From: Gordonibacter urolithinfaciens | GTDB lineage: Bacteria; Actinomycetota; Coriobacteriia; Coriobacteriales; Eggerthellaceae | Direction of reading: 5' to 3' | Length of the DNA stretch: 64,000 bases | Assembly (NCBI RefSeq): GCF_900199375.1 | Contig: NZ_LT900217.1 | Location: 434,001 to 498,000, forward strand | Shown: positions 27,640 through 47,321 of the stretch, in pieces | Position numbering within the stretch: the stretch's first letter is position 1 | How the letters are laid out: every line of letters starts with the position of its first letter | Translations under genes and position numbers: made by a program | Notes under the pieces: generated by a model | What the model was told of the DNA's origin: nothing | The model's database searches: none | Seen by the model: the letters and a program-made list of their open reading frames with translations, nothing else

Positions 27640-27674
27640 CGCGGGCTGCCCGGGCCTTCTGTTCTTGTGGAGCA

Positions 27675-27703
27675 GCCGGCCGCCTTGCGGGTTCTCGGCC
27701 GGC
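27675..27703 (+). terminator. Hairpin after the universal stress protein gene
   Basis: 7-bp GC stem (27675-27681 with 27697-27703) followed by CCTTTC. It is weak, but it sits between the stress-protein stop and the extended -10 promoter of the next gene. Confidence 0.4.
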
Positions 27704-27717
27704 CTTTCGCCCTCCCT

Positions 27718-27726
27718 TGGTATAAT
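27718..27726 (+). promoter_or_regulatory. Extended -10 promoter at the start of the glycosyltransferase operon
   Basis: TGGTATAAT, an extended -10 element (TGnTATAAT), 9 bases before the ATG at 27736. No -35 match is seen. The resulting leader would be very short, so translation could be nearly leaderless. Confidence 0.4.
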
Positions 27727-27735
27727 GGCCCGGTT

Positions 27736-29046
27736 ATGGATACCTTGACCCAGCAGAAGAAACCGGCGGAGAGCGCCGCGCGCGCACCCAAGCGCATCGC
27801 CGTCGTGACGATGGGCGTGAAGCTGGGCGACGAGACGCGCGGCTACACGCGCTTCCGCTTCCTCTCGGAGCTGCTTGCGCGCGAGGGCTTCGCCGTCGAC
27901 CTCGTCACGTCCACGTTCCAGCATTGGGAGAAGGCGCAGCGCGATTGCTCGAAGCCCTGCTACCAGGGCCTTCCCTACCGCATCGTGTTCATCGAGGAGC
28001 CGGGCTACACGAAGAACCTCGACCTCGGGCGCATCCGCAGCCACCGCGTTGCCGCCAAGAACCTGCGCGAGCACTTCGCAAAGAACGCCGGCGCCTACGA
28101 TCTTGTGTACGCGGAGATCCCGCCCAACGACGTCGCGCGCGTCTGCGCCGAGGCGGCCGAGGCGCAGGGCATCCCCTTCGTGGCCGACATCAACGACCTG
28201 TGGCCCGAGGCCATGCGCATGGTGGTGGACATCCCCGTGGTGAGCGATGTGGCGTTCTACCCGTTCGCGCGCGACGCGAAGCGCGTCTACCAGCTGCTCT
28301 CCGGCGCCGTGGGCACCTCCGACGAGTACGCTGCCCGCCCGGCCAAGGACCGGCAGCGCCCCTACCCCCACGCGACCGTCTACGTGGGCAACGACCTGGC
28401 CGCTTTCGACGCGGGCGCGAGCCGCTTCGCCGACGCGATAGAGAAGCCCGCCGACGAGGTCTGGGTCACGTACGCGGGGACGCTCGGCGCGAGCTACGAC
28501 GTGGCCACGCTCGTGAGGGCCGCCGCACTGCTCGAGCAGGAACGGCTCGCGCGCACGGGCGCGCCGGCCGGCCCGACGGGGCAGGCGATCCCGCCCGTGC
28601 GCGTGAAGGTGCTCGGCGACGGGCCCGACCGCGAGAAGCTCCAGGCGCTGGCCGCCGAGCTGGACGCCCCCGCCGACTTCCTCGGCTACCAGGACTACGA
28701 GCACATGGCAGCCTACCTGTGCGCGTCCGACATCGTGGTGAACTCGCTGGTGAAGTCCGCCGCGCAGAGCATCGTCACGAAGATCGGCGACTACCTGGCC
28801 AGCGGCAAGCCCATGGTCAACACGGGCTCGAGCCCCGAGTTCCGCTCGAAGGTCTCCGCCGACGGCTTCGGCGTGAACGTGGAGGCGGAGGATCCGCGCG
28901 CGCTCGCCGACGAGATAGCGAAGCTCGCCGGGCACGCGTCGCTGCGCAAGATCATGGGGGCGAAAGGACGCGCCGTGGCCGAGCGCGAGTTCGACCAGCC
29001 GCGCTCGTACCGCGCGATCGTGGATTTGCTGCGCACACTGCTGTGA
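27736..29046 (+). CDS. Glycosyltransferase, GT4-like (GT-B fold)
   Basis: 436 residues. The frame is open from 27667, but the ATG at 27736 follows the promoter element. An N-terminal Rossmann half is seen (RIAVVTMGVKLGDETRGYTRF, FVADINDLWPEAMRMV), and a C-terminal donor-binding half (VKVLGDGPDREKLQALAAEL, FLGYQDYEHMAAYLCASDIVVNSL). The late motif TKIGDYLASGKPMVNTG stands where GT4 enzymes bind the nucleotide. GC-rich like the core genome. It heads a three-gene group with an aminotransferase and a lipid-sugar phosphotransferase, so it probably adds an early sugar of a surface glycan. Donor and acceptor are unknown. Confidence 0.8.
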   Translation: MDTLTQQKKPAESAARAPKRIAVVTMGVKLGDETRGYTRFRFLSELLAREGFAVDLVTSTFQHWEKAQRDCSKPCYQGLPYRIVFIEEPGYTKNLDLGRIRSHRVAAKNLREHFAKNAGAYDLVYAEIPPNDVARVCAEAAEAQGIPFVADINDLWPEAMRMVVDIPVVSDVAFYPFARDAKRVYQLLSGAVGTSDEYAARPAKDRQRPYPHATVYVGNDLAAFDAGASRFADAIEKPADEVWVTYAGTLGASYDVATLVRAAALLEQERLARTGAPAGPTGQAIPPVRVKVLGDGPDREKLQALAAELDAPADFLGYQDYEHMAAYLCASDIVVNSLVKSAAQSIVTKIGDYLASGKPMVNTGSSPEFRSKVSADGFGVNVEAEDPRALADEIAKLAGHASLRKIMGAKGRAVAEREFDQPRSYRAIVDLLRTLL

Positions 29047-29153
29047 TTTTGGTTGAGCGCCTCGCCAAAACGGCGGCGGCGCGCGAGAATATGAGTTTCG
29101 GCGCGCCGCAGGCAAGGGCGCGCTTGCCGTGCCATGAAGCAAGGAGCGATATC

Positions 29154-30380
29154 TTGACCGAGCAGAGACGCGTTTCGTTCTCCCCGCCTGACATCACGCA
29201 GGCCGAGATCGACGAGGTTGTGGACACGCTGACAAGCGGCTGGATAACCACCGGACCCAAGACGAAGGAGTTCGAGCGCGAGCTGGCGGCCTTCACGGGC
29301 GCCGATCGCGTGGCCTCGTTCTCCTCGGCCACGGCCGCCCTCGAGTGCGCGCTGCGCGCCCTGGGCGTAGGACCGGGCGACGAGGTCATCACGAGTGCCT
29401 ACACCTACACGGCCTCGTGCTCGGTCATCTGCCACGTGGGTGCGACGCCGGTTTTGTGCGACGTGGCCCCGGACTCCTACGAGATGGACTACGACACGCT
29501 GGCGTCGCTCGTGACCGAGCGCACGCGAGCGGTCATCCCCGTGGACATTGCCGGCCGCATGGTCGACTACGGCCGGCTCTTCACCGCCCTCGAGAGCGGT
29601 GGCAGCCGCTGGACGCCCGCCACCGACCTGCAGCGGGCGATCGGGCGCGTGGCGGTGCTGGCCGACGGGGCGCACTCGCTCGGCGCCGTGCAGGACGGGC
29701 GCCCCTCGGGCTCCGTCGCCGACTTCACCGCGTTCTCGTTCCATGCCGTGAAGAACCTCACCACCGCCGAGGGCGGCGCGCTGGCATGGCGCGCGGGCGC
29801 CTTCGACTCCGACGAGCTTTACAACCAGTTCATGCTCATGTCGCTTCACGGCCAGACGAAGGACGCGCTGTCGAAGACGCGCGCCGGCGCCTGGGAGTAC
29901 GACGTCGCCTATCCCGGCTGGAAATGCAACATGACCGACATCCAAGCGGCCTTGGGGCTGGCGCAGATGCGCCGCTACCCCACCCTGCTCGCGCGCCGGC
30001 GCGAGCTCGTGGGGCGCTACGAGAACGGTTTGGCCGACCTGGGCGTCGACGTGCTGCAGCATTACGGCGAGGACTTCGCCTCGAGCGGGCACCTGATGCT
30101 CGTGCGCCTGCCTGGCAAAAGCGCAGCGTTCCGGAGCGCGCTCATCGAGCGGCTTGCCGACGCCGGCGTATCGGCGAACGTACACTACAAGCCGCTGCCC
30201 ATGCTCACCGCCTACCGCGACCTCGGCTTCGACATCGACGACTTCCCGAACGCCCGCGCGCAGTTCGAAAACGAGGTCACGCTGCCTCTTCACACGCTGC
30301 TCTCGGATGACGACGTGGACTACGTCGTGGGGGCCTTCCACCGCGCCTGGGACGCGCTTGAGGCGGAGGGTGTCCGCTGA
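29154..30380 (+). CDS. DegT/DnrJ/EryC1-family sugar aminotransferase
   Basis: 408 residues from a TTG at 29154 with AAGGAG 7 bases upstream; the reading frame is open much further upstream but overlaps the previous gene. PLP-dependent fold: FTGADRVASFSSATAALECAL, GPGDEVITSAYTYTAS, VAVLADGAHSLGAVQDG and the Schiff-base Lys in FSFHAVKNLTTAEGGAL. Relatives transfer an amino group from glutamate to a keto-sugar nucleotide. The stop overlaps the next start (TGATG). With a PglC-type transferase next door, a role in making a 4-amino sugar such as bacillosamine is possible but not shown. Confidence 0.88.
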   Translation: MTEQRRVSFSPPDITQAEIDEVVDTLTSGWITTGPKTKEFERELAAFTGADRVASFSSATAALECALRALGVGPGDEVITSAYTYTASCSVICHVGATPVLCDVAPDSYEMDYDTLASLVTERTRAVIPVDIAGRMVDYGRLFTALESGGSRWTPATDLQRAIGRVAVLADGAHSLGAVQDGRPSGSVADFTAFSFHAVKNLTTAEGGALAWRAGAFDSDELYNQFMLMSLHGQTKDALSKTRAGAWEYDVAYPGWKCNMTDIQAALGLAQMRRYPTLLARRRELVGRYENGLADLGVDVLQHYGEDFASSGHLMLVRLPGKSAAFRSALIERLADAGVSANVHYKPLPMLTAYRDLGFDIDDFPNARAQFENEVTLPLHTLLSDDDVDYVVGAFHRAWDALEAEGVR

Positions 30381-30976
30381 TGTACGCGAAGTTCGGAAAG
30401 CGCGTGTGCGACCTGGTGATCGGCGTGGTGGCGCTGCCGTTCGTGCTGCTGATCATAGCGGTGCTGGCACCGTTCATCCACTTCGAGGACAAGGGCCCGG
30501 TCTTCTACAACGCCCCGCGCGTGGGGCTTGGCGGCCGCGACTTCAAGATGTACAAGCTGCGCTCCATGCGCGTGAACGCCCCCGACCTGGTCATGGAGGA
30601 CGGCTCCACCTACAACGGCGCCGACGACCCCCGCATGACCCGCGTGGGCGCCTTCATGCGCAAGACGAGCCTGGATGAGATGCCCCAGTTCCTGAACGTG
30701 CTGAAGGGCGACATGAGCGTGGTGGGCCCCCGCCCCGACCTACGCCGCGAGACCGAGCTCTACGAGGGCGACGAAGGGCTGAAGCTCACCGTGAAGCCCG
30801 GCATCACCGGCTACGCCGCCGTCTACGGCCGCAACTCGCTCCCCTGGCACGACCGGCTGAAGATGGACGTGGAATACGTGCGCACCATGAGCTTCCCGCT
30901 CGACGTGAAGATTTTCTTCAAGACATTCTCCACGGTGTTCAAGCAGGAGGGCGTGTTCGTGGAGGATGGAGAATGA
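30380..30976 (+). CDS. Undecaprenyl-phosphate sugar-1-phosphate transferase (PglC/WbaP C-terminal type)
   Basis: 198 residues, the size of minimal monotopic phosphoglycosyl transferases such as PglC. A single N-terminal membrane-dipping helix ([20 protein letters not shown]) is followed by [10 protein letters not shown], the catalytic [20 protein letters not shown] (Asp-Glu dyad) and [11 protein letters not shown]. It links the first sugar phosphate to undecaprenyl phosphate and so starts a glycan repeat on the inner membrane face. Last gene of the native GC-rich group; immediately beyond it base composition drops. Confidence 0.93.
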
Positions 30977-31019: not shown

Positions 31020-31373
31020 TCATCGCCCGAAAGAATACACGCAAATGCCAGCAAGAATAAGTCCGAGCGCCACGAGCTTTTTTCTAGTCATCTTCTCCTT
31101 GAATATGGTGACTCCGAAAACGGTAACGTAAACGTAGCTTGTTGCCTCGAGTATGGGTCCCATAGACAAAGGAATACCTCGGTACGCCAGTATCGAGAGG
31201 AACGTCGTGCCTATGAAGAGCACGTAGGCGAATACGACCAAAGGGTTCAGGTACTCTTTAATTGGGCTGTCGTATTCTTTTAAAGCAGCCTTTTTCAGCA
31301 TAACTTGCGATATCGAGCTGATGAAAACACCTAGAAGCAGAACGCAAGAATACAGCAGGACCGTGCTATCCAT
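31020..31373 (-). CDS. Small DMT-superfamily membrane protein (EmrE/ArnE-F-like), subunit B
   Basis: 117 residues from ATG 31373, which lies inside the end of the upstream gene (8-base overlap). Four membrane segments (LLYSCVLLLGVFISSISQ, PLVVFAYVLFIGTTFLSIL, LEATSYVYVTVFGVTIF, LVALGLILAGICVYSFG) give the minimal four-helix DMT fold. Two such half-size proteins in tandem resemble ArnE/ArnF, which flip undecaprenyl-phosphate-aminoarabinose. The context here (polyprenyl-phosphate glycosyltransferase, amino-sugar enzymes, YfhO-like protein) supports a lipid-sugar flippase. A drug exporter is the alternative. Confidence 0.72.
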   Translation of the reverse strand: MDSTVLLYSCVLLLGVFISSISQVMLKKAALKEYDSPIKEYLNPLVVFAYVLFIGTTFLSILAYRGIPLSMGPILEATSYVYVTVFGVTIFKEKMTRKKLVALGLILAGICVYSFGR

Positions 31374-31755
31374 CGACAAGCTCGCCTTTCCCTCCAGCGT
31401 CCTCGCCGTCGGCTTTAGCGAACAAGGCCACTCCGCAAATGACAAGGGCGGCTCCCGCTATCTTGCTAACCGTAACGGTCTCTCCAAAAAACACCACGCC
31501 CCAGATGATGCCCCAGACAACCGCAACCGCCCGATTGGCGAACGCTGTGGTCAAAGGGAGCCTCTTGATGATTTGTTGCCACCCAATGGCATACAAGCCG
31601 AGCAAACCCAAGATGGCCGCATAGCATGCCACGAACTGCCAGCTGAAAACATTTTGCTGCGAAGCGAGCTTGCTGAAGATGCCGCTCACCGAGTACACCA
31701 TGAGCAGGACGTGCAGCACGAGGAGCGTCTTGAGTTTCGAATGTTTCACAAGCAT
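31366..31755 (-). CDS. Small DMT-superfamily membrane protein (EmrE/ArnE-F-like), subunit A
   Basis: 129 residues from ATG 31755, overlapping the ATP-grasp stop as TGATG; a GTG at 31758 is an alternative. Four membrane segments are seen (KTLLVLHVLLMVYSVSGIF, FVACYAAILGLLGLYAI, AFANRAVAVVWGIIWGVVFF, KIAGAALVICGVALFA), then a short charged tail. It differs clearly in sequence from its downstream partner, so the two could form a heterodimer. Translationally coupled on both sides, it is part of the seven-gene operon that starts with the YfhO-like gene. Confidence 0.72.
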   Translation of the reverse strand: MLVKHSKLKTLLVLHVLLMVYSVSGIFSKLASQQNVFSWQFVACYAAILGLLGLYAIGWQQIIKRLPLTTAFANRAVAVVWGIIWGVVFFGETVTVSKIAGAALVICGVALFAKADGEDAGGKGELVDG

Positions 31756-32909
31756 CACATCGCGCGAGGCAGGTAAGGCCGCAATCGCTCGATCGTCGCA
31801 GCTCTCATGATGTAGTAGCCGAACCGGGTCGAACTGTCACGCACTTTACATGACGGCTCCTCGATTGGGCTGACATACTCGATCAGCTCAGGGGCTTTAA
31901 CCTGAAGACGATGGAGCACATCGATATCCTCCTGACCGACAACGAAACGAACCAAGGCGCATCCGGAAGGATCTTTTGGCTCCAGGTCGGGCTTGTTGCC
32001 CAAAGCGATATCGACGACGGCGCCGGTGTAATCGATACCCGTCGACAAGCGGACAAGATCGCTTCCGATGCAGTCGCCACCCATGCGGCTACCGATCTCG
32101 ATGAGCCACACGTCGCCATCGGCGTCCACCATGACCTCGGCGTGCGAGGCCCCACAACGCACACCGAGATGATCGAGCGCACGCTTCACAACTTGAACGA
32201 CACGAACGAGAAGCGCCTCGTCGATGGAAGCGGGCTCCAAATGGCCAGTCTCGATAAAATGGGGGGCGCCCGTTGTAAATTTCTTGGTCAACGCCAAGAA
32301 GCTATGCTCGCCCTCCCATGACACGAACTCGACACTGAACTCCTCCCCTGCAACGAACTCCTCGACAACAGCGCGTTTCGAGAATCCCTCGGAAAACGCC
32401 GCCTCTAAAGCGGCTTCGAGACCTTCCGCAGACTCAAGCTTGGTAATGCCCCGGCTTCCCGAGCGATCAACAGGCTTGACAATAAGGGGATACGCAAGCT
32501 CGGACAGTCCGTCGCGCGAGTCACCCTCAACCAACACGCTCTTCGGCGAAGGGTCTCCGCAGGAAGCGAACGTTTTCCGCATGAGGTGCTTGTCGGTCGA
32601 TCGCGCGACGACAGCGGTCGGGTTGCCCGTAAGACCTAGAGCCTCAGCGACATAACCCACCGTGATATTCGCCAAATCTGAGCCAATACTGCAAATGCCA
32701 TCGATGCCAATCTGTCGACACTGTTCCAAAATGGCATCTCTTTCCGTAATGCTCACTGGATAGAAGTGGTCCGCCGTACGTTCACCGACATCGCCTGCCC
32801 GCCATGCGAATACGTGAGTCTCGCAGCCCATTTCCTTCGCCTTCTCGATCAAAGGATTCTGAAAATGGGACGCTCCTATGATGGCAAGCTGCTTGCCCAT
32901 GGTATCCAC
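31755..32909 (-). CDS. ATP-grasp family ligase
   Basis: 384 residues. N-terminal Rossmann-like part (KQLAIIGASHFQNPLIEKAKEMG), then the ATP-grasp domain: DKHLMRKTFASCG, YPLIVKPVDRSGSRGITKL (ATP-binding Lys and Gly-rich loop), VVEEFVAGEEFSVEFVS, and the metal site DVWLIEIGSRMGGD. ATP-grasp enzymes join a carboxylate to an amine or similar nucleophile through an acyl phosphate. Among amino-sugar genes it may attach an amino acid or another acid to the sugar made by the WecE-like enzyme; this is inference. It is 2 bases from the SDR gene upstream and overlaps the DMT gene downstream. Confidence 0.83.
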   Translation of the reverse strand: MDTMGKQLAIIGASHFQNPLIEKAKEMGCETHVFAWRAGDVGERTADHFYPVSITERDAILEQCRQIGIDGICSIGSDLANITVGYVAEALGLTGNPTAVVARSTDKHLMRKTFASCGDPSPKSVLVEGDSRDGLSELAYPLIVKPVDRSGSRGITKLESAEGLEAALEAAFSEGFSKRAVVEEFVAGEEFSVEFVSWEGEHSFLALTKKFTTGAPHFIETGHLEPASIDEALLVRVVQVVKRALDHLGVRCGASHAEVMVDADGDVWLIEIGSRMGGDCIGSDLVRLSTGIDYTGAVVDIALGNKPDLEPKDPSGCALVRFVVGQEDIDVLHRLQVKAPELIEYVSPIEEPSCKVRDSSTRFGYYIMRAATIERLRPYLPRAM

Positions 32910-32911
32910 AC

Positions 32912-33928
32912 CTAACCCTTCGCTTTGCCGGATTCCTCGAGCAGCTCCCAGCGCCCGCTCTCCAATTCAGCTTTGTAATCCCTCATCATCTCGACATAGT
33001 TCGTGAAGCGGGGCTCGAAGCCGAAATCGCGCTTCGCCTTCGACATGTCGTAGAGAAACGAGGGTGTGTTGTTGGGTTTGTCGGGCCGGTATACTATTCG
33101 CGACCCCTTGCCTTTGCCGAACACCTCTATCACGGCTTTAGCTTGATCCTCAAGATCGAGACTGGTTCCACTCGTCATGTTGTACAACCCTCGGGCAGCA
33201 TCGCTTTCGAGTGCCAACCGAAAAGCCCGGGCCACGTCTTTCACGTAAACGATATCGCGCGTTATGTGGGGATCGCCCCAGAGCTCGATGTCGAGCCCCG
33301 CCTCCGCATTGTCGATGAACGTGGCGATGCCCGATTTGTACGGCTTACCGTTGACAAGGATAGTCCCATGGGGCCCGACGCCGTACACGGGCGGCAAACG
33401 GAACACCGACCCCTGCAGACCGTGCTGCTGGTTGTAGTATTCGATCACGTCGTTGGCAGCATTCTTGCTGATGACGTACACAGAATGGTCGCCAGTGAAC
33501 TTGAAATCACGTGGCTCGTCTTCGGTGATAGCATAGCCCTTGCCCCAAGCGCCGGATACGTCAGAATAACTGCACGTCGATATGATCTTCTTGATGCCAT
33601 TTTTACGACAGTATTCAAGAACATTGATCGTGCCGATAACATTGACCTCAAAATAATCGGCAGCGTTCTCCTCGTCCTCCAAGTCAGCCGTCGCATTGGC
33701 TGGCAGCAATCCCGCCGGCAGCAGAACTCCCTCGACACCTTCGGTCGGAAGCAGGTCGAAATCTTCAGGCTTGGTCATATCCAAGCGAACGAACCGAGCT
33801 CCCATATCTTCCAGCTTCGCGCCCAGTCGCTCGTTCCGTCCCGTCGCAACGACATCTTTTCCTGCCTTAATCAACTCGTCGACGGTGTACATGCCGATGA
33901 AGCCCGTTGCTCCGATTACCACGATCAT
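32912..33928 (-). CDS. NAD(P)-dependent sugar epimerase/dehydratase (extended SDR)
   Basis: 338 residues. The nucleotide-binding motif GATGFIGMYTVDEL is at the very N-terminus, the NVIGTINVLEYCRKNGIKK helix follows, and the active-site Tyr-x-x-x-Lys is YVISK after STCSYSDVSG. The substrate-binding half includes FRLPPVYGVGPHG and ITRDIVYVKDVARAF. Members act on nucleotide sugars as epimerases, dehydratases or reductases; the exact reaction cannot be read from sequence. Its start overlaps the stop of the upstream glycosyltransferase by 4 bases. Confidence 0.88.
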   Translation of the reverse strand: MIVVIGATGFIGMYTVDELIKAGKDVVATGRNERLGAKLEDMGARFVRLDMTKPEDFDLLPTEGVEGVLLPAGLLPANATADLEDEENAADYFEVNVIGTINVLEYCRKNGIKKIISTCSYSDVSGAWGKGYAITEDEPRDFKFTGDHSVYVISKNAANDVIEYYNQQHGLQGSVFRLPPVYGVGPHGTILVNGKPYKSGIATFIDNAEAGLDIELWGDPHITRDIVYVKDVARAFRLALESDAARGLYNMTSGTSLDLEDQAKAVIEVFGKGKGSRIVYRPDKPNNTPSFLYDMSKAKRDFGFEPRFTNYVEMMRDYKAELESGRWELLEESGKAKG

Positions 33929-34857
33929 GGTCGCTCCTTTCCATTCAATATTTCCGCTACGACGTACAGGGGCCGATTCTTCACTTCGGTGAAGATATTG
34001 CCTATGTAAATGCCGACTACGCCAATAGCGGAGAGCGTGAGTCCGCCCATAAGGTATATGGAGGCGATAGTGCTCGTCCAGCCGACAGGAGCCGATCCAT
34101 CTATAAAATACCTGATTACATTGTAGAGCAGATAGGCGAATGAAAGCAGGGCTATGGCGAAGCCAACGTTAACCGCAAACCGAAGGGGCTTGTTCGATTG
34201 AGCGGTAATCAACTCGAAAGCCATACGCATTTTCTTTGAGAAATTATAGGAAGACTTACCTTCGAAGCGCTCATCCCCTTCAATCTCAATAGCGGCCTGC
34301 CTGAAACCTAGCCACTTGATGAACATGGTGTATCCGCGGTTGTGCTCCCGCATACGAAGATAGTTGTCGATGACGATACGGCGCGATACGCTGAAATTGC
34401 ACAATGAGCTATCGTATGCGCCGTCGGTGAAATACTCGTACGCCTTGTAGAACGCCTTGGATAACAACTTCGTCAGTCCTGTGTCTTTACGTTCCACGCG
34501 GCGCGCAAAGACCACATCGTATCCTTCTTGAGCTTTTTCAAAAAGCTGAGGTATCGCCTCCGGTCTGTCCTGCAAATCGCAGTCCATCACAACGACCCAG
34601 TCGCCCTTGCACAGATCGAGTCCAGCCGTGATAGCTCTGATTTGACCGAAGTTGCGAGAAAGCCTTACGCCTACCACATGCTCATCTTCGGCGCACAGCC
34701 CCTCGATCTCCTCCCATGAGTTCTGCGGGCAACGATCGTCGACCAAGATGATCTCGTAACGAGCGCCCATGCCTACGAATGTGACGGCAAGACGCCGGCA
34801 GAGCTCAGGCAAAGCGGCTCGACATCCGTATACCGGCACTACAACAGAAATGAGCAC
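33925..34857 (-). CDS. Polyprenyl-phosphate glycosyltransferase (GtrB/CsbB/ArnC-like, GT2)
   Basis: 310 residues. GT2 catalytic domain: LISVVVPVYGCRAALPEL, EIILVDDRCPQNSW, GDWVVVMDCDLQDRPEAI (DxD region), then FEGKSSYNFSKKMRMAFE. Two C-terminal membrane segments follow (FAVNVGFAIALLSFAYLLYN and IASIYLMGGLTLSAIGVVG). This is the layout of enzymes that load a single sugar onto undecaprenyl phosphate for use outside the cell. CsbB, a relative, works with a YfhO protein, and a YfhO-like gene lies two genes upstream here. The gene is coupled to the SDR gene by a 4-base overlap. Confidence 0.88.
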   Translation of the reverse strand: MLISVVVPVYGCRAALPELCRRLAVTFVGMGARYEIILVDDRCPQNSWEEIEGLCAEDEHVVGVRLSRNFGQIRAITAGLDLCKGDWVVVMDCDLQDRPEAIPQLFEKAQEGYDVVFARRVERKDTGLTKLLSKAFYKAYEYFTDGAYDSSLCNFSVSRRIVIDNYLRMREHNRGYTMFIKWLGFRQAAIEIEGDERFEGKSSYNFSKKMRMAFELITAQSNKPLRFAVNVGFAIALLSFAYLLYNVIRYFIDGSAPVGWTSTIASIYLMGGLTLSAIGVVGIYIGNIFTEVKNRPLYVVAEILNGKERP

Positions 34858-34865
34858 GATCTCCC

Positions 34866-36020
34866 CTATTCCTTTCTTTTGCTAGTCAAAGAAGAAGCGA
34901 AGAATGCTCGAACCGCCTCTATCACCCGGTCCTGATCTTCTTCCGCCAGCCCGTAATACATCGGCAATCTGACAATTCGTTCGCTCTCGGCCGTCGTATA
35001 GACATCGTCTCCCGCAAAACGTCCGAACTTTCGCCCAGCCGGTGCCGAATGCAGCGGGATGTAGTGGAACGTAGACTGGACATCCCTATCTCTCAGATAG
35101 GCGATAAGCGCAGTACGTTCGCTCAATCCCCTACATTTCATGTAAAACATATGGGCATTGTGAACACATTCCTTAGGTACGACGGGTAGAGAAATTATTT
35201 CTTGGTCGGCCAAGTCGACAAACGCATGATAATAACGATTCCATATTGCGAGCCTATTCTCATTGATATCATCGGCGCGTTCCAGCTGAGCCCATAGGTA
35301 TGCCGCATTTAAATCGCTCGGCAGATAACTGCTGCCGTAGCCAACCCAAGTATACTTGTCTACCTGCCCACGGAAAAAACGGGAACGGTTGGTGCCTTTT
35401 TCGCGCAGCACCTCTGCGGGCTCATTGTGCTTCTCGTCAGCAATCAGCAGAGCTCCGCCTTCGCCCATCGAGTAGTTTTTCGTCTCGTGGAAAGAGTAAC
35501 ATCCGAAATCACCAATGCTGCCGAGAGGTCTTCCTTTGTATAAACTCATGATACCCTGCGCAGCATCTTCGACAATCCGAAGGTTATACTCAGATGCCAA
35601 ATCCATGATCGCATCCATTTCGCAAGAAACGCCGGCGTAATGCACCACGACGATTGCCTTTGTCTTGTCGGAGACAGCCGCCTCGATCATGCGTTCATCA
35701 ATATTCATCGTGTCGGGACGTATGTCAACGAATACGAGGCGTGCGCCAGCCAAAACGAACGCTGTCGCCGTAGACGAGAACGTGTAGCTGGGAAGAATAA
35801 CCTCGTCTCCCGGCTCGATATCGCACAATAGAGCAGCCATTTCAAGCGCAGCCGTCCCGCTGGTGGTCAAAAGGGCCTTTTGGGCTCCGGTGCAGTCTTC
35901 CAGCCACGCGTTGCATCGCTTCGTAAAAACTCCGTCACCGCATATCTTCTTGTTCCTGATCGCCTGCTCGAGATAGACAAACTCAGTCCCCACGAACGGG
36001 GGCTCGTTGAAGTTGATCAC
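34866..36020 (-). CDS. wecE: dTDP-4-amino-4,6-dideoxygalactose transaminase (WecE/RffA-like)
   Basis: 384 residues. It resembles E. coli WecE along its whole length, including NEPPFVGTEFVYLEQAIRN, KICGDGVFTKRCNAWLE, PGDEVILPSYTFSSTATAFV, RPDTMNIDERMIEAA, the PLP Lys in YSFHETKNYSMGEGGALL and EKGTNRSRFFRGQVDKYTWV. WecE converts dTDP-4-keto-6-deoxyglucose to dTDP-Fuc4N with glutamate as amino donor. That keto sugar is made by RmlA and RmlB, encoded at 48226-49128 and 43400-44401. Its ATG overlaps the YfhO-like stop by 4 bases. Confidence 0.9.
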   Translation of the reverse strand: MINFNEPPFVGTEFVYLEQAIRNKKICGDGVFTKRCNAWLEDCTGAQKALLTTSGTAALEMAALLCDIEPGDEVILPSYTFSSTATAFVLAGARLVFVDIRPDTMNIDERMIEAAVSDKTKAIVVVHYAGVSCEMDAIMDLASEYNLRIVEDAAQGIMSLYKGRPLGSIGDFGCYSFHETKNYSMGEGGALLIADEKHNEPAEVLREKGTNRSRFFRGQVDKYTWVGYGSSYLPSDLNAAYLWAQLERADDINENRLAIWNRYYHAFVDLADQEIISLPVVPKECVHNAHMFYMKCRGLSERTALIAYLRDRDVQSTFHYIPLHSAPAGRKFGRFAGDDVYTTAESERIVRLPMYYGLAEEDQDRVIEAVRAFFASSLTSKRKE

Positions 36021-38929
36021 TGTTGCGCTCCCTTATCGGTCGCGGATAAGTCCATATGCCTTTTGGTATGACTTGAAAACAGCCTTCTCCGAGCAAGCAT
36101 AGCGACAGCACAAACCACTATACCCAATGCAGTGAGTACGACACCTGCCTTCAAACCAGGCGTTTCATAGTGCAAAACAACCTCATGGACTCCTTCGCCA
36201 AGTTCGATACCCATGAAAGCTACGTTAGCTTGTAACAATTCAGCGGGCCGTCCATCAACCTGTGCGGTCCACCCTTTTGAGAAGGGGACCATAAAATATA
36301 CCAGCCGTGGATCGTTCTCAATCGATACCCTGCACGAGAGCGTCGAGCCGTCGAACCGCACATCGGCCACCTTGTCTGCGCCAGCGTCTTTAAGCTGCTG
36401 GATCTGGGATTCGTAGCAATCAACTGGCTGGGCAAGTACTTGAAGATCGTCGAATGAGTAAACACCGGGATCTTGGAAAATAAGCTCGATCCGCTGGCGC
36501 GGCTCATTGGAATAGCCCATGTTGACGAGCCACTCGTCTTTACCTCCGTATAAATGGCTCGCGTTCGTAGGATTCCAGATTGTTTTTTCGACGCCAGCCA
36601 AACTCAACCTCACTTTTGCATCCACCGTACCCACGCCATAGACTATATCTTGGAAGGCGAGCTGCTGCTTGCGATATAGGGGAGTCTCAGCACGCTCGCT
36701 CCCTGTCAATCGTTCGGACGGAAGCAAGTCGCGATACGAAAGGCCCGCTATAGCGACATACGCATCAACGTCAGGTGGCACCTGCACATCAAGCACTATA
36801 CGCGTATCCGCACGGTAAACGGTGAATCTTTCCCCATCATAAGAGAAGCCGGTTTCATCTTCTTTCCCCCCACCCGCGACAATTGGAGTTCCGTCAAGGC
36901 TCTCCAGTTTGAAACCCAACCGTTCTTCAGTGAAAACCAAGTTCGCATCTTCGAGCGGCGAAGAAGAAGATTCCACCACCGCCCCCTGGAGCAAAGCTTG
37001 CTGTTTTCGGGACGGATCCAATTCGTCATAGACCGTCCGATCGATAACTTTATCGTACGTAAATACCAGAGGCAGATAGGAGTCCGTCTGGGAAACTCGA
37101 AATATCGATCCCTCGGCTTCCCCTTCAAATACCGTAGTGTCGAACAACGGAGGAATAAGATCATCAGATTCATCGGGAGTCACAAAGTATTTTACGCCGG
37201 CGAGAGCCTCAAGCGGCGTACGCGAATCAAGTCCGGCGTACATAAAGTTAATGGAACTTGCTGCTAGACCCAAACCTGTATGGTATTCATCGACAAGATC
37301 GTTGTAATAGCTGTCGTAAAACAGGGGCGATTTCAGTCGCTGAACCATGTTGCTGTTGAGGTACTGCACGACTTCGGCAGAGTCATACCGCCAGAAAGAA
37401 TCGTCCCCTGTACGAGAAACAAGTGTCGTAGGATTATTCTCGACAAGAACATCGTGAGAACGACCAAGTCCAACCTGACCTGCAACCCGATTGCCGCCGG
37501 AAGCGACAAACTGCGACCCATAGCCGTTGTAGAAGAAACAGACGCAAGCCAGCAGCGACAGAAGCACTGCCGCCTTTTTGCCAGTCAGGGTGCAGAAAGT
37601 TCCCGCAAGAGCAACGAGCAATACGAGCAACATCGCAACGCCGAACAAAGCCTCTTTCGTCGTGAAGGGAAAGAGCACGAAGGCTACCACGAAGGCATAA
37701 GCAACGGAGCCCTTTACGGCGGCCGCACTTCTCCCCTTTTCCATGTTCAAACAATCAGGAAGCATCGCAGCAACGATGTAGGCAACGCACAGAACGTATG
37801 CCCACACCCACCGGTTGTTTGGATAGGCAAAGCCGTTGAAGACCTTGCCAATCAGCGGCAAGCAGAGAAACACGGTGAGCACGATGAAGATCACCCGCAA
37901 AAACCTGCGCTCAGCGACAGAACTCCCACGGGTCTTTGCCGCGCCCTTTCCGAACAAAAGAAACACCGCCAAAAGCGCAACTGCGGCGAATCCGTACGAG
38001 CAATCGGCACCGACATCTGACAGACTCCCGAACCCGAGCACCAGCTTGACATAGTAGCCAATGGGGTATAGCAGGGCCTCCGGACGATCTAGCCCAAGGC
38101 GACCCTCCCCCAGGATCGTCAAAACACCGGGTACAAATAGGACGGCACCAATCATCGCTGCAACGAGAATCAATCCGCAAATTTTCATGAGCCATTTCAA
38201 AAACCCTCCCACATGCTTCCTTTCGGGCAAGAAAGCGTAGCGGACAAGGCAGTACACTACAAGCAGAAGGCAAACGGCATAGGCTGTAGTAACTGATTTC
38301 AAGAAGCAGAGGGCCATTGCCCCTATAAATAGCAGAGGACTCTCCCGAGCAAGCACCTTCTCGATGCCCCACACCACCAAAGGGCCCAAGAGAAGTGGAT
38401 AGAGCATGAATATCTGCGAAAACGCCAGCAGCGTATACCCGCTAAAAACATACACCATCGAAGATACGAGTACCGAAAAGCGATCCTTGGCACGGTAAAA
38501 GCAGAAACCCGAAAAGGCAAGACCAGCAAGATACAAGTGCAGCGGAACGGAGGCATTCAAGGCAAGATCTGCGTATTCCATGGGAACGAGCACCGACAGC
38601 AGGTTCAATGGGTCGCCCAGGCTTGGAAGAAGCGTCATGATGACATCTGCGCCGTAGCCTATCTCCAAAGACCAAACAGGAACGACACCGGTCCTTGCCA
38701 CGAAGATATTGTATAAAAGCTCACGCAACCACTCACCTTCGTAGGCGAAGAAGACATACTGCTGCTCAAGCCCGTCAACATTCCAGATGAAACCCTTGCC
38801 TGCAAAAAGGAAGCTGAAAGACATAGCGAAGAACAAAATCAAAAATACGATGGTATATGCAGCGAAGTACGATCGCTTGCTGGTCGTTCCTTCAAATGCC
38901 TCCAGCCAAGCCTTGAAGTGCGCTCTCAT
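36017..38929 (-). CDS. YfhO-family membrane protein (probable GT-C-type glycosyltransferase)
   Basis: 970 residues. About a dozen membrane segments fill the first half, beginning with IVFLILFFAMSFSFLFAG and followed by the loop FIWNVDGLEQQYVFFAYEGEW typical of YfhO proteins. A large extracytoplasmic domain spans about residues 480-915, and a final membrane segment (VVLTALGIVVCAVAMLA) precedes a short basic tail. In Bacillus and Listeria YfhO proteins transfer sugars from undecaprenyl phosphate to teichoic acids on the outer face. First gene of the operon running down to the DMT pair. A plausible SD lies far upstream only; a -10-like TATAGA is near 39030 on the minus strand. Confidence 0.85.
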   Translation of the reverse strand: MRAHFKAWLEAFEGTTSKRSYFAAYTIVFLILFFAMSFSFLFAGKGFIWNVDGLEQQYVFFAYEGEWLRELLYNIFVARTGVVPVWSLEIGYGADVIMTLLPSLGDPLNLLSVLVPMEYADLALNASVPLHLYLAGLAFSGFCFYRAKDRFSVLVSSMVYVFSGYTLLAFSQIFMLYPLLLGPLVVWGIEKVLARESPLLFIGAMALCFLKSVTTAYAVCLLLVVYCLVRYAFLPERKHVGGFLKWLMKICGLILVAAMIGAVLFVPGVLTILGEGRLGLDRPEALLYPIGYYVKLVLGFGSLSDVGADCSYGFAAVALLAVFLLFGKGAAKTRGSSVAERRFLRVIFIVLTVFLCLPLIGKVFNGFAYPNNRWVWAYVLCVAYIVAAMLPDCLNMEKGRSAAAVKGSVAYAFVVAFVLFPFTTKEALFGVAMLLVLLVALAGTFCTLTGKKAAVLLSLLACVCFFYNGYGSQFVASGGNRVAGQVGLGRSHDVLVENNPTTLVSRTGDDSFWRYDSAEVVQYLNSNMVQRLKSPLFYDSYYNDLVDEYHTGLGLAASSINFMYAGLDSRTPLEALAGVKYFVTPDESDDLIPPLFDTTVFEGEAEGSIFRVSQTDSYLPLVFTYDKVIDRTVYDELDPSRKQQALLQGAVVESSSSPLEDANLVFTEERLGFKLESLDGTPIVAGGGKEDETGFSYDGERFTVYRADTRIVLDVQVPPDVDAYVAIAGLSYRDLLPSERLTGSERAETPLYRKQQLAFQDIVYGVGTVDAKVRLSLAGVEKTIWNPTNASHLYGGKDEWLVNMGYSNEPRQRIELIFQDPGVYSFDDLQVLAQPVDCYESQIQQLKDAGADKVADVRFDGSTLSCRVSIENDPRLVYFMVPFSKGWTAQVDGRPAELLQANVAFMGIELGEGVHEVVLHYETPGLKAGVVLTALGIVVCAVAMLARRRLFSSHTKRHMDLSATDKGAQQ

Positions 38930-43399: not shown

Positions 43400-44445
<1,046 letters not shown>

Positions 44446-44686
44446 CTCAATATGCAAAACCCATGGCACTTTCCACGCAAAGTGCTCCAACGGGCATATG
44501 AGTGAGCGGACCTCCTGCTAGCCCGACTACCGGGGTCAGCCCGACCGCCGCCCCAACCCCAACCCGACCCCTTCTCGTTGCGATACGCGAAAGTAATGTA
44601 AACGCCTGCAAAGCGAATATTGCATGCTATCATACTGCAATTGCGGCTTTTATAAGAAAAGGAGAAGAGGGAGGGCTTCGAGCTAC

Positions 44687-45464
44687 ATGAGCTTTTCGAA
44701 AACGTCGTTGAAGCGCAATTGGTTCATTCTCACGTCCCTTGTCTCAAAGGACTTCAAGCTCAAGTATCGTCGCAGCGTCTTGGGCGTTGCCTGGTCGGTT
44801 TTAAACCCACTGCTCATGATGATTGTGCTTGCCGCAGTCTTCTCGGTCGTTTTCCGAGGAACCATCGAACCGTTTCCCGTCTATCTGATTCTCGGACAAA
44901 CGCTGTTTACCTTCATGTCAGATGCCACGTCAGGCGCCATGGGTTCCATCATCGAGTCCGCTCCGCTCATAAAAAAGATACGAATCAACAAGATGCTCTT
45001 CCCGCTGGAGAAGGTGATGTTTGCCCTTCTTAACTTCGCCATCTCTCTTATTGCGGTAGCCATAGTCATGGTTTTCTTTCAAGTTGTCCCAACTTTCAAT
45101 ATCTTGCTATTGCCCGTGCTTTTGGCATACCTTTTTATGTTTAGCTTGGGGCTCGGTTTACTACTCGCAGCACTGTCGGTTTTTTTTTCGCGACATCATG
45201 CATTTGTGGGGTGTCATTCTCACGGCATGGACCTATGCGACACCTCTTTTCTACTCTATCGAGATCCTTCCCGATTGGATGGTCTCCGTGATGCAGTTCA
45301 ACCCTATGTATTATTACGTCACTTACTTCCGCGAGATTGCCATGTGGGGAACAACACCGGGTCTTACAGAAAACCTCATCTGCTTCGGATGTGGAGCCGT
45401 TGCGCTCGCTTTAGGGCTACTTGTATTTCGCAAGCAGCAAAAGAAATTCATATTGTACGTTTAG
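44687..45464 (+). pseudogene. Wzm-type polysaccharide ABC transporter permease, frameshifted in a T9 run
   Basis: The first frame encodes a typical ABC-2 permease: KDFKLKYRRSVLGVAWSVLNPLLMMIV, then membrane segments and SDATSGAMGSIIESAPLIKKIRINKMLFPLEKV. At the T9 run 45180-45188 the frame is lost, and the rest (FFRDIMHLWGVILTAWTYATPLFY, MQFNPMYYYVTYFREIAMWG) continues in the +1 frame. Taking out one T restores one protein of about 258 residues with six membrane segments. Unrepaired, translation runs on to 45487 with about 100 unrelated residues. It pairs with the ATPase that starts 15 bases after the intact end. It may be phase-variable, corrected by slippage, or a sequencing error. Confidence 0.85.
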
Positions 45465-45479
45465 AGACGAGAGATCATT

Positions 45480-47321
45480 ATGCCTGAAAACGTTAACACA
45501 TCGGCTCTTTCGCTCGACAGCTCTGAGACCTCCAAACCCGTTGATAACCGCCCAGACATGGTCAGGGTAGACCATGTTTCCATGGTTTTCAACATGGCGT
45601 CCGAGCAATTGAACAGCTTGAAGGAATACCTCATCAAAATTGCGCGACGGGAATTGTTCTTTGAGGGGTTCACAGCGCTCGATGACATATCGTTCGTTGT
45701 GAAAAAGGGGGATGTTTTCGGCATAATTGGCACCAATGGATCTGGTAAGTCCACAATGCTAAAAATAATCGCGGGTGTTTTGGAGCCTACGAAAGGGCAT
45801 TGCGAGATCAACGGCAACATTGCGCCCCTTATCGAGCTTGGCGCCGGATTCGATACGGAATTATCCGCGAGAGAGAATATCTATCTTAACGGTGCGTTAC
45901 TCGGCTATTCAAAAGATTTCATCGATGAGCACTTCGAAGAAATCGTCTCTTTTGCAGAAGTGGAAAAGTTTCTTGACATGCCACTTAAAAACTATTCGTC
46001 GGGAATGGTGGCGCGCATTGCATTCGCCATTGCCACCGTGATCGTTCCCGAAATCCTTGTGGTAGACGAAGTGCTCTCTGTAGGCGATTTCATGTTCCAG
46101 AAAAAATGCGAGGACCGCATCAGCGAGCTTATCGAAAAGCACGGCGTTACAGTTCTCATCGTCTCGCACAGCAACGAGCAAATAGCCCGATTATGCAACA
46201 AAGCAATCTGGATCGAAAAGGGCCATACACGCATGCTGGGAGATTCAGAATCAATCTGTCGCGTCTACGGCGGCCTTGGAGGTAGGTCCGGCAGCTCAAA
46301 AGCCGAAAAGATGGTATTTGACGCTCTTAGAGAGTCTGATCATTTCGAAATACCCGACAATACGCTTATCAAAATACATGGGGAAAGTGCCGACGGAACA
46401 AATGTAAAGATGGCGCTTCGCGGAAGAAAAGATACCGATACCCATACGGTCATCATCGCTTGCGGAACCACGCATGTTAACGCAGTTATGGCGAACCCTC
46501 TGGGAGGAGCTCTTGGAGCTCCAATCATCACAACAAAGCCCGATGAACTCTCAGAAGCAGCTGAACGCCTACTGTACGACTACAAGCCAGAACAGATTAT
46601 CACAATCGACTGCGGGCGCTGCGCTTCGAAAGCCTTCGAGGTGTTACATCGCTTGCCATGGCATCCAGCCATCACTGCGATCGAAAACAACGACGGCAAC
46701 ACTTGGGATATGTCAATGAAGCTGTATGAGTATGGCCTGAAGCGAGGGCTTTGGTCCAATGAGGCCTCTTTGATTCGACTCGACAACAATCCCGAATCGC
46801 TTGTCGCCTCACCGTTTCTCTATGATTCTAAATGTCCGCTTTTTGTCGCATCGAACAACATGGATATCGATGTCAAGGACTTTAAAGAAACGCTCGCTCG
46901 AGGATCGATAACGCACCTTGTGGCATTCGGTGCAGAGCCATTTGATACGTTGGACAGCAAGATAGTCTCGCAGGGAATAGCTATCGAACGTATCGCTGCC
47001 GGCAATCAAGCAGCATCATGCTTCGCCATTACTGCTTGGGTCTATGACCGCATGAAAAGGGCACGCGGCAGGGTTGATGAACTTTGCGTCGCCACTCTGT
47101 CCCTTGCCCAATGGCCAGAGCTGCTTGCTTGCGGATGCTACACCTCACAACGACCGAGCGTATTACTACTTGAAGACAATACGAATTTGGACAGCATAGC
47201 CCAATGCCTACAATTCGTACGGGATCGCAAAGACGATCTGCAGGCCATAGTCTCGATAGGCAACCAGCTGGCACTTGGAGAAACCGAACTCCAGATGCTC
47301 TGTTACGAACTTGAATACTAA
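45480..47321 (+). CDS. Wzt-type polysaccharide ABC transporter ATPase fused to a CWB2-like domain
   Basis: 613 residues. The ATPase domain (about 25-265) has Walker A GTNGSGKST (84-92), signature NYSSGMVARIAFA (171-183), Walker B EILVVDEVLSVGD and the switch His in VSHSNEQIA. It is closest to TagH/Wzt exporters of teichoic acid and O-antigen type polymers. From about residue 321 to the end lies a region resembling cell wall-binding repeat 2 (CWB2): VIIACGTTHVNAVMANPLGG, ALGAPIITTKPDELSE, EQIITIDCGRCASKAFEVL. CWB2 domains are normally outside the cell on S-layer proteins, while this protein has no membrane segment or signal. It ends 4 bases into the convergent rfbD. Confidence 0.85.
   Translation: MPENVNTSALSLDSSETSKPVDNRPDMVRVDHVSMVFNMASEQLNSLKEYLIKIARRELFFEGFTALDDISFVVKKGDVFGIIGTNGSGKSTMLKIIAGVLEPTKGHCEINGNIAPLIELGAGFDTELSARENIYLNGALLGYSKDFIDEHFEEIVSFAEVEKFLDMPLKNYSSGMVARIAFAIATVIVPEILVVDEVLSVGDFMFQKKCEDRISELIEKHGVTVLIVSHSNEQIARLCNKAIWIEKGHTRMLGDSESICRVYGGLGGRSGSSKAEKMVFDALRESDHFEIPDNTLIKIHGESADGTNVKMALRGRKDTDTHTVIIACGTTHVNAVMANPLGGALGAPIITTKPDELSEAAERLLYDYKPEQIITIDCGRCASKAFEVLHRLPWHPAITAIENNDGNTWDMSMKLYEYGLKRGLWSNEASLIRLDNNPESLVASPFLYDSKCPLFVASNNMDIDVKDFKETLARGSITHLVAFGAEPFDTLDSKIVSQGIAIERIAAGNQAASCFAITAWVYDRMKRARGRVDELCVATLSLAQWPELLACGCYTSQRPSVLLLEDNTNLDSIAQCLQFVRDRKDDLQAIVSIGNQLALGETELQMLCYELEY

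Follow-up and report, generated by a model that had tools for sequence, protein, structure and literature searches.

The seven-gene operon described here occupies positions 31020–38929 on the minus strand of a 64,000-nucleotide stretch of the Gordonibacter urolithinfaciens genome (hereafter the window), a genome available as one contig of 3.29 Mb. Along the transcript, the genes encode a YfhO-family GT-C glycosyltransferase, a WecE-type aminotransferase, a polyprenyl-phosphate glycosyltransferase of the GT2 family, a short-chain dehydrogenase/reductase (SDR), an ATP-grasp ligase and two half-size proteins of the drug/metabolite transporter (DMT) type, termed DMT1 and DMT2. All seven open reading frames lie where an earlier prediction made for this stretch (the original prediction) had placed them, and its description of seven coupled genes of these families was confirmed by Pfam, NCBIfam and the junction lengths. 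Successive genes are joined at −4, +8, −4, +2, −4 and −8 nt; because these junctions overlap or abut (in the −4 to +8 nt range up to DMT1, followed by an 8-nt overlap of DMT2 with the DMT1 gene), the operon is tightly coupled. We consider it likely that the operon encodes a multi-component transmembrane glycosylation system resembling the Arn system of Gram-negative bacteria, acting on a capped form of 4-amino-4,6-dideoxy-D-galactose (Fuc4N) and provided with an ArnE/F-like flippase.

A WecE-type aminotransferase and an ArnC/PgfS-like glycosyltransferase

The sugar is indicated by the aminotransferase (34866–36020, minus strand; PF01041, 1.2e-86), a WecE-type enzyme of the kind that converts deoxythymidine diphosphate (dTDP)-4-keto-6-deoxyglucose to dTDP-Fuc4N. 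It scores 622.4 bits against the NCBIfam equivalog model NF008687, above the cut-off of 375, and shares 62.5% identity with Escherichia coli WecE, while its closest solved structures, 6blg and 4piw, are both named dTDP-4-amino-4,6-dideoxygalactose transaminase. Membership strongly supports its assignment as WecE, and its product is predicted from the family to be dTDP-Fuc4N. A second aminotransferase of the window, at 29190–30380, is only 26% identical to it.

The adjoining gene (33925–34857, minus strand; PF00535, 3.2e-27) encodes an ArnC/PgfS/GtrB-like polyprenyl-phosphate glycosyltransferase, hereafter GT2, which has the features of this class, namely a GT-A domain, a DCD motif of the DxD type and two C-terminal transmembrane (TM) windows. 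Its closest solved structures are GtrB sll0501 and ArnC, and it is 33.5% identical to E. coli ArnC. Against the curated NCBIfam models it reaches 218 bits for PgfS (cut-off 500) and 184 bits for ArnC (cut-off 529), below the cut-off in both cases.

Paired half-size DMT proteins resembling ArnE and ArnF

DMT1 (31366–31758, minus strand; PF00892, 1.3e-6; four TM windows) and DMT2 (31020–31373, minus strand; PF00892, 5e-8; two TM windows only, by a crude hydropathy count) are both EamA-type proteins and are proposed as the first and second subunits of a flippase; the two half-size genes thus adjoin each other in an operon with an ArnC-like glycosyltransferase gene. Relatives of DMT2 align from the ATG at 31373, and this codon, rather than the TTG at 31445, is therefore its most likely start. 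The likeness to ArnE and ArnF that the original prediction had pointed out is real, yet far below the NCBIfam cut-offs: the best model for DMT1 is ArnF (23 bits, cut-off 99) and that for DMT2 is ArnE (25 bits, cut-off 92). Across the two families, the ArnE model is the most widely matched, by 42 of 43 DMT1 and 44 of 49 DMT2 sequences; many members are matched by exporter models of the small multidrug resistance (SMR) type as well, with lower scores at best.

The family profiles agree with this ranking. The DMT1 profile scores E. coli ArnE at 32.2 bits, EmrE at 18.3 and ArnF at 16.0, and the DMT2 profile scores ArnE at 30.7, EmrE at 19.8 and ArnF at 19.7. Glutamate is found at the column of EmrE Glu14 in 0/43 DMT1 sequences (42 of 47 loci plus the window, five with unclear bounds being omitted) and in 0/49 DMT2 sequences; the column is occupied by Tyr, Phe, Leu or Asn in DMT1 and by Ser, Ala or Gly in DMT2. 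In the window itself, DMT1 has no acidic residue within its first 40 positions and DMT2 has them only at 2, 33, 35 and 40. Since ArnE outscores EmrE and Glu14 is missing, an EmrE-like drug-exporter reading of the pair, which the original prediction had named as the finding that would speak against it, was rejected.

The two genes also travel together. DMT1 directly precedes DMT2 in 47 loci of named genomes, at a distance of −23 to +11 nt in 45 of them (two were mis-measured). Of the 31 DMT2 matches within the organism's own family, 30 could be assigned a locus; both small genes are present in 29 of these 30, and the one remaining locus runs into a contig edge. No natural DMT1–DMT2 fusion was found; the candidate L103 has an intergenic stop codon, and in L130 the genes are likewise separate. 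Because both genes are paired in nearly all loci, a DMT1–DMT2 heterodimer is plausible, and such a pair may flip the lipid-linked sugar.

A YfhO-family protein with the GT-C fold

The first gene of the transcript (36017–38929, minus strand) encodes a 970-residue protein that combines membership in PF09586 (1.8e-80, 271.9 vs 28.5 bits) with the GT-C fold. Its AlphaFold model has a mean predicted local distance difference test (pLDDT) score of 77.6. A Foldseek search with this model returned three matches at E ≤ 0.001, all of them AftD entries (best 3.4e-10), and among solved folds AftD, the oligosaccharyltransferase OST/STT3 and ArnT lead. Consistent with this, VIA-align places STT3, AftD, ArnT and PglB at Z of about 14 to 20, with ArnT superimposed over 385 residues (Z 15.5, root-mean-square deviation 4.5), and its first 33 rows list what we take to be GT-C enzymes throughout. 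All 17 aligned sequences (16 of the 21 YfhO matches plus the window sequence) have an aspartate at the position of Asp52, which closely follows the first TM helix; an Asp at this place has been proposed as catalytic for several GT-C structures (PMC11127046). PgfM2 and PgfM1 are the only NCBIfam matches of the protein, both below the cut-off. At the level of gene types, the operon brings together GT2, a putative flippase and a GT-C enzyme.

Residues 669–835 of the YfhO protein align in VIA-align with many folds of the carbohydrate-binding module (CBM) type, weakly, at Z of about 8. This outer part may perhaps bind the acceptor, or the match may reflect no more than a common arrangement.

An exchangeable ligase predicted to cap Fuc4N

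Two further enzymes are coded between GT2 and the DMT pair. The SDR (32912–33928, minus strand; PF01370, 1.8e-38) belongs to a family of enzymes modifying nucleotide sugars or acyl groups and is epimerase-like, its best solved structure being a uridine diphosphate (UDP)-glucose 4-epimerase (8.7e-22). The ATP-grasp ligase (31755–32909, minus strand; PF13535, 2.1e-23) is proposed to cap dTDP-Fuc4N at N4. Its model, with a pLDDT of 94.6, has the ATP-grasp fold, and the nearest folds are 4dim, deposited as a phosphoribosylglycinamide synthetase, and the L-amino acid ligase 3vot, the same two that lead by sequence. Residues E258, E271 and R275 are invariant in 63/63 aligned sequences, which comprise the window and 62 of the 80 related loci described below; not included were L083, whose matched region is interrupted by a stop codon, L114, whose start coincides with a contig end, and 16 others.

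The vicinity of WecE or the DMT pair was surveyed for capping genes in 26 of the 27 own-family genomes that hold WecE (G076 was omitted). The window-type ligase occurs in eight of the 26 (G000, G001, G002, G038, G062, G068, G113 and G133). Ten others carry a second ATP-grasp type, either that of locus L199 or a protein 39–44% identical to it, and six of these ten loci (L195, L196, L197, L199, L202 and L206) also code a LysA-like, pyridoxal phosphate-dependent decarboxylase, which hints at a cap derived from an amino acid. In two genomes (G089, locus L207; G101, locus L209), whose clusters have no ATP-grasp gene, a WecD-like GNAT protein is encoded beside WecE, in L209 on the opposite strand between GT2 and WecE. 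Among NCBIfam models, these two GNATs match best that of WecD, the dTDP-Fuc4N acyltransferase of E. coli (46 and 47 bits against a cut-off of 219), and their identity to E. coli WecD is 20–23%. Other, distant ATP-grasp genes are present in three genomes (G114, G129 and G137). In total, an ATP-grasp gene or a WecD-like GNAT gene lies near WecE or the DMT pair in 23 of the 26 genomes surveyed, and none was detected in the fetched stretch of the remaining three (G020, G086 and G123). The exchange can be followed within the genus as well: in G066 the second-type version lies about 9 kb from the same pair of PseC-like and PglC-like genes (87 and 97% identical) that directly adjoins the operon in the window.

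The exchange of the ligase slot with a second ATP-grasp type or a WecD-like acetyltransferase points to a modified, N4-capped donor. Given the genomic linkage with WecE and the exchange with a WecD-like GNAT, the ATP-grasp enzyme most likely caps the amine of Fuc4N with a carboxylic acid. Alternatively, the ATP-grasp ligase and the SDR could make a separate small molecule or peptide, leaving the decoration as plain Fuc4N with a free amine, like the 4-amino-4-deoxy-L-arabinose (Ara4N) of the Arn system. The great diversity of ATP-grasp substrates would allow for this, as would the nearest solved structures, an L-amino acid ligase and a phosphoribosylglycinamide synthetase deposit, and the three clusters in whose fetched stretch no capping gene was detected. 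We nevertheless regard it as rather unlikely in view of the two clusters that replace ATP-grasp by a WecD-like GNAT beside WecE and of the proximity of one or the other capping gene in 23 of 26 genomes.

In two related clusters, a PaaK-like adenylating enzyme is encoded beside the DMT pair (L210:3130–4482 and L211:17352–18689, 70% mutually identical), possibly representing another cap chemistry.

Conservation of the operon and co-occurrence of WecE with DMT2

A sibling genome (G068) has the same seven genes in unchanged order, and so do G001 and G002 (the latter Adlercreutzia equolifaciens, locus L090), which belong to one other genus; in these two the set directly follows RmlA–RmlB. Among the matches listed, the closest named relative of the ATP-grasp ligase, at 96% identity, is that of Gordonibacter sp. 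28C. When named genomes were scanned with the alignment of this ligase, at least 527 relatives were obtained, and the best 80 of them (51–96% identity) were kept; these belong to Coriobacteriia and Clostridia, together with two other Bacillota (L081, Solobacterium; L124, uncultured Bacilli). The combination is not peculiar to this actinobacterium but recurs in both classes.

The loci were fetched with up to 10 kb on each side. Among the 80, a GT2 relative (any tblastn relative being accepted) is present in 65, WecE in 50, both DMT genes in 47, a single DMT gene in one, and the SDR and a YfhO-profile protein in 21 each. Among the 47 loci with at least 5 kb on both flanks, the corresponding numbers are 43 for GT2, 32 for WecE, 29 for the DMT pair, 13 for the SDR and 16 for YfhO, and a large protein with at least seven TM windows is encoded in 40. 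Eleven further loci (L044–L054, 26–38% identity) were not counted, except L052 (G137) in the cap survey. Scattering of the genes into unrelated contexts, the other outcome that had been expected to refute the prediction, was accordingly not seen for the core of GT2, WecE and the DMT pair; the gene-neighbourhood survey bore out the co-occurrence of this core, with the SDR and YfhO being less constant than the rest.

Since the 80 loci had been picked via ATP-grasp, WecE was tested against DMT2 independently. In the organism's own family (138 genomes), WecE is present in 27, DMT2 in 29 and both in 24 (p 7e-19). In its order (297 genomes, including most of those of the family), the numbers are 58, 61 and 52 (p 1e-41), so that 52 of the 58 WecE genomes hold DMT2; outside the own family they are 35, 38 and 31. 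Counted by genus over 108 genera of the order and tallied by hand, WecE is found in 35, DMT2 in 38 and both in 31 (p 4e-16), although in one of the shared genera they occur in different genomes. The association extends to the family of locus L069 (Pseudobutyrivibrio; 250 genomes), with 81 genomes for WecE, 66 for DMT2 and 55 for both under strict thresholds (p 3e-24), and 88, 73 and 58 under loose ones. Because the gene order recurs in a sibling and in another genus, and because WecE and DMT2 co-occur across hundreds of genomes, the operon is not a chance assembly. The co-occurrence of WecE and DMT2, the DMT profiles and the ligase exchange together support the original proposal, in which a modified Fuc4N donor serves a decoration system that has an ArnE/F-like flippase of its own.

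Several observations weigh against this interpretation. The window DMT proteins score 17 to 25 bits, far under the ArnE and ArnF cut-offs (92 and 99). The co-occurrence tests treat genomes or genera as independent, with phylogeny handled by the genus count only, and use the DMT2 profile alone rather than the pair, which lowers our confidence slightly. Of the 47 well-flanked ATP-grasp loci, 18 have no DMT pair, and 26 of the 81 strict WecE genomes in the L069 family are without DMT2 at E ≤ 1e-20, two of them having weaker matches; from these absences it follows that another flippase or another use exists, and one ATP-grasp locus without the DMT pair carries a Wzx-like protein. Conversely, nine of the 61 DMT2 genomes of the order are without WecE. 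YfhO accompanies only 21 of the 80 ATP-grasp loci, and the GT2 tally of 65/80 takes in any tblastn relative. Furthermore, the organism's own genome codes a GtrA-family protein at C1:2896577, about 2.4 Mb from the operon.

Some ATP-grasp loci have WecE but neither the DMT pair nor YfhO, for example L042 and L043. Such loci would also fit a role of capped Fuc4N in a cytoplasmically assembled repeat unit, on the model of enterobacterial common antigen, with YfhO and the DMT proteins acting on another lipid-linked sugar; in E. coli, whose genome contains the wec genes, WecE serves a repeat unit linked to undecaprenyl diphosphate (Und-PP). We hold this reading of the operon to be quite improbable, given that all seven window genes overlap or abut, that ArnC/PgfS-like GT2 relatives are the commonest ATP-grasp partner (65/80 loci), and that the operon codes no second sugar pathway in Pfam and NCBIfam scans.

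The GtrA protein raises a further alternative, an ordinary CsbB–YfhO system in which GT2 and YfhO would use the GtrA encoded at 2.9 Mb and the DMT pair would export a small metabolite or drug. GtrA is indeed common, being found in 241 of the 297 genomes of the order, and the DMT proteins do match SMR exporters weakly; one GtrA is described as serving several sugar systems in Lactococcus lactis in a 2021 review (PMC8035078). However, GtrA shows no clear association with WecE (51/58 genomes with WecE vs 190/239 without, p 0.10), whereas DMT2 does, and the ArnE-like scores and missing Glu14 of the DMT families are those given above. Moreover, no GtrA match was obtained in five genomes that hold both WecE and DMT2 (G163, G165, G179, G240 and G252), three of which (G179, G240 and G252) are listed as 99% complete. 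The stretches of G252 and G240 code YfhO, ATP-grasp, the DMT pair, WecE, SDR and GT2, and that of G179 codes the same set minus YfhO, with a second-type ATP-grasp and a LysA-like gene. Because these three nearly complete genomes lack a GtrA match, the comparison argues that the DMT pair, rather than GtrA, is the flippase in GtrA-less genomes. We therefore judge the GtrA-dependent alternative unlikely and retain the DMT pair as the candidate flippase of the operon.

The operon forms one end of a polysaccharide island

The operon has a G+C content of 52.8%, as compared with 69.0% at window positions 1–30000, and forms one end of a low-G+C polysaccharide island that extends to about 58 kb. The island also codes RmlA, RmlB, RmlC and RmlD (each above its cut-off), several glycosyltransferases and a Wzm/Wzt pair. 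RmlA, a glucose-1-phosphate thymidylyltransferase (48226–49128, minus strand; TIGR01207, 474 bits, cut-off 361), would supply dTDP-sugars, and RmlB, a dTDP-glucose 4,6-dehydratase (43400–44416, minus strand; TIGR01181, 475 bits, cut-off 365), would supply the substrate of WecE. Both components of the possible polymer exporter are encoded on the plus strand: a Wzt-like ABC transporter ATPase (45480–47321; PF00005, 4.4e-18) and a Wzm-like ABC-2 permease (44624–45487, second piece 45084–45464; PF01061 over two open reading frames). The Wzm pieces lie in different frames in the window and in one frame in the sibling G068 (L216:5468–6265), so the split is due either to an error of assembly or to loss of the exporter. 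Because the Wzm frame is split here and intact in the sibling, the acceptor of the sugar is uncertain. Plasmid records searched with the operon DNA (near mode) gave no match.

The long C-terminal part of the Wzt-like ATPase has no Pfam match at 0.001; a CWB2 domain considered for this part was dropped, as Pfam at 0.001 gave ABC_tran and AAA_29 only. Elsewhere in the island, 54124–54924 and 54746–55369 encode a polytopic, possibly Wzx-like protein that seemingly continues from one frame into another, neither piece being matched by Pfam at 0.001, and 51784–53982 encodes a membrane protein of the DUF7657/DUF7654 type, a possible further GT-C enzyme. A large Amidase_3 protein at 59342–63964 has GBS Bsp-like repeats, several of them nearly identical, and a C-terminal glucosaminidase domain. 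On the other side, 27667–30976 on the plus strand adjoins the operon and encodes a GT4 glycosyltransferase, a PseC-like aminotransferase and a PglC-like sugar transferase; the PseC-like and PglC-like genes beside the operon are conserved in the siblings G068 and G066.

Comparison with known glycosylation systems

The closest parallel in design is the Gram-negative Arn system (ArnB, ArnA, ArnC, ArnD, ArnE–ArnF and ArnT), in which a 4-amino sugar is N-capped as a nucleotide sugar and then loaded onto the lipid by ArnC. Both systems bring together, in one operon, paired half-size DMT genes, an ArnC-like glycosyltransferase, a GT-C enzyme and a DegT-type aminotransferase. The differences are that the aminotransferase is ArnB there and WecE-type (dTDP-Fuc4N) here, that Arn has a formyltransferase in the place of the ATP-grasp ligase, that ArnD has no counterpart among the seven genes, and that the GT-C enzyme is ArnT in a Gram-negative host and YfhO in a Gram-positive one. 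In addition, arnE comes first in E. coli, whereas by NCBIfam the first small gene of the operon is more ArnF-like and the second more ArnE-like.

The Pgf system of Streptococcus mutans (PgfS, PgfM1, PgfM2 and PgfE) is alike in that PgfS is the best NCBIfam match of GT2, and PgfM2 and PgfM1 are those of YfhO; it differs in that every window match is below the cut-off. The Pgf set includes an epimerase, and it is not known to have a WecE, an ATP-grasp or a DMT pair. In the synthesis of enterobacterial common antigen, WecE and WecD provide N-acetylated Fuc4N (Fuc4NAc) for an Und-PP-linked repeat unit that is translocated by WzxE. The 62.5% identity of the two WecE proteins and the WecD-like GNAT in two related clusters connect this pathway with the operon, in which, by comparison, the class of GT2 indicates a route through undecaprenyl phosphate rather than Und-PP. 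The Pyl/Pat enzymes of Bacillus cereus, which lead to UDP-yelosamine, reportedly comprise an aminotransferase and an ATP-grasp ligase whose substrate is a nucleotide-linked 4-amino sugar, and in this they resemble the WecE/ATP-grasp combination. They differ in reportedly using UDP-FucNAc4N and 2-oxoglutarate, where dTDP-Fuc4N is expected here.

CsbB–GtcA–YfhO and related Firmicutes systems share a CsbB-type GT2 and a YfhO GT-C enzyme with the operon; they are described as working with flippases of the GtrA or Wzx type and with GlcNAc, Gal and similar sugars (PMC8035078, PMC7389260), whereas the operon has a built-in ArnE/F-like pair and genes for sugar synthesis. A small EmrE/ArnE-like protein, ORF14, has been proposed as a lipid-sugar flippase acting with a GT-C enzyme in the pentofuranose system of Citrobacter youngae O1, which differs from the operon in being Gram-negative and in relying on a single small protein modelled as a dimer. 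Polymers exported by ABC transporters are finished inside the cell, and this three-component system is described as adding side sugars after polymerization (PMC11127046). The 2021 review lists GtrA-type and Wzx-type flippases for Gram-positive bacteria and does not mention SMR, EamA or ArnE in its main text (PMC8035078), and ArnE/ArnF are described as SMR-type lipid-sugar transporters of E. coli in another source (PMC7389260). Searches of open-licence papers gave no title on the seven-gene combination. We file the operon as a variant of multi-component transmembrane glycosylation that would work like Arn, with proteins that by the cut-offs are not members of the Arn families.

Discussion

The gene identities, the WecE reaction as given by its family, the GT-C fold, the pairing of the DMT genes with their linkage to WecE, and the exchange of the ligase are supported by the sequences, and suggest the following pathway. 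RmlA and RmlB of the island would make dTDP-4-keto-6-deoxyglucose, which WecE would aminate to dTDP-Fuc4N. The ATP-grasp ligase would then join a carboxylic acid, either an amino acid or a keto acid, to the 4-amino group, and the SDR would probably adjust the sugar or the cap. For the later steps, and for the cap chemistry itself, we infer that the ArnC/PgfS-like GT2 loads the capped sugar onto polyprenyl phosphate and that the two DMT proteins, as a heterodimer, jointly carry the resulting lipid-linked sugar across to the outer leaflet, as is thought for ArnE and ArnF. In the last step, YfhO would transfer the sugar to a surface glycan; the polymer encoded by the island, which may leave the cell via Wzm/Wzt, is the most likely acceptor.

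Taking the relatives into account, we lean somewhat towards a broader view, in which the operon represents a widespread and apparently undescribed Gram-positive counterpart of Arn. It would consist of a constant chassis (WecE, the ArnC/PgfS-like GT2, the paired ArnE/F-like flippase and a GT-C enzyme) and of interchangeable N4-capping modules, namely two ATP-grasp types, one often accompanied by a LysA-like decarboxylase, or a WecD-like acetyltransferase. Gut Coriobacteriia and Clostridia could in this way vary the sugar of their surface glycans in chemistry and charge without changing its route of export.

If this holds true, many gut Actinomycetota and Bacillota would possess a self-contained system for decorating surface glycans with capped Fuc4N, and an ArnE/F-like flippase would join the GtrA and Wzx types in Gram-positive transmembrane glycosylation. 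WecE together with the DMT pair would then serve as a genomic marker for predicting the sugar, and the ligases would constitute new nucleotide-sugar enzymes to assay. Furthermore, the exchange of capping enzymes would allow variation of surface charge and antigenicity to be tested directly.

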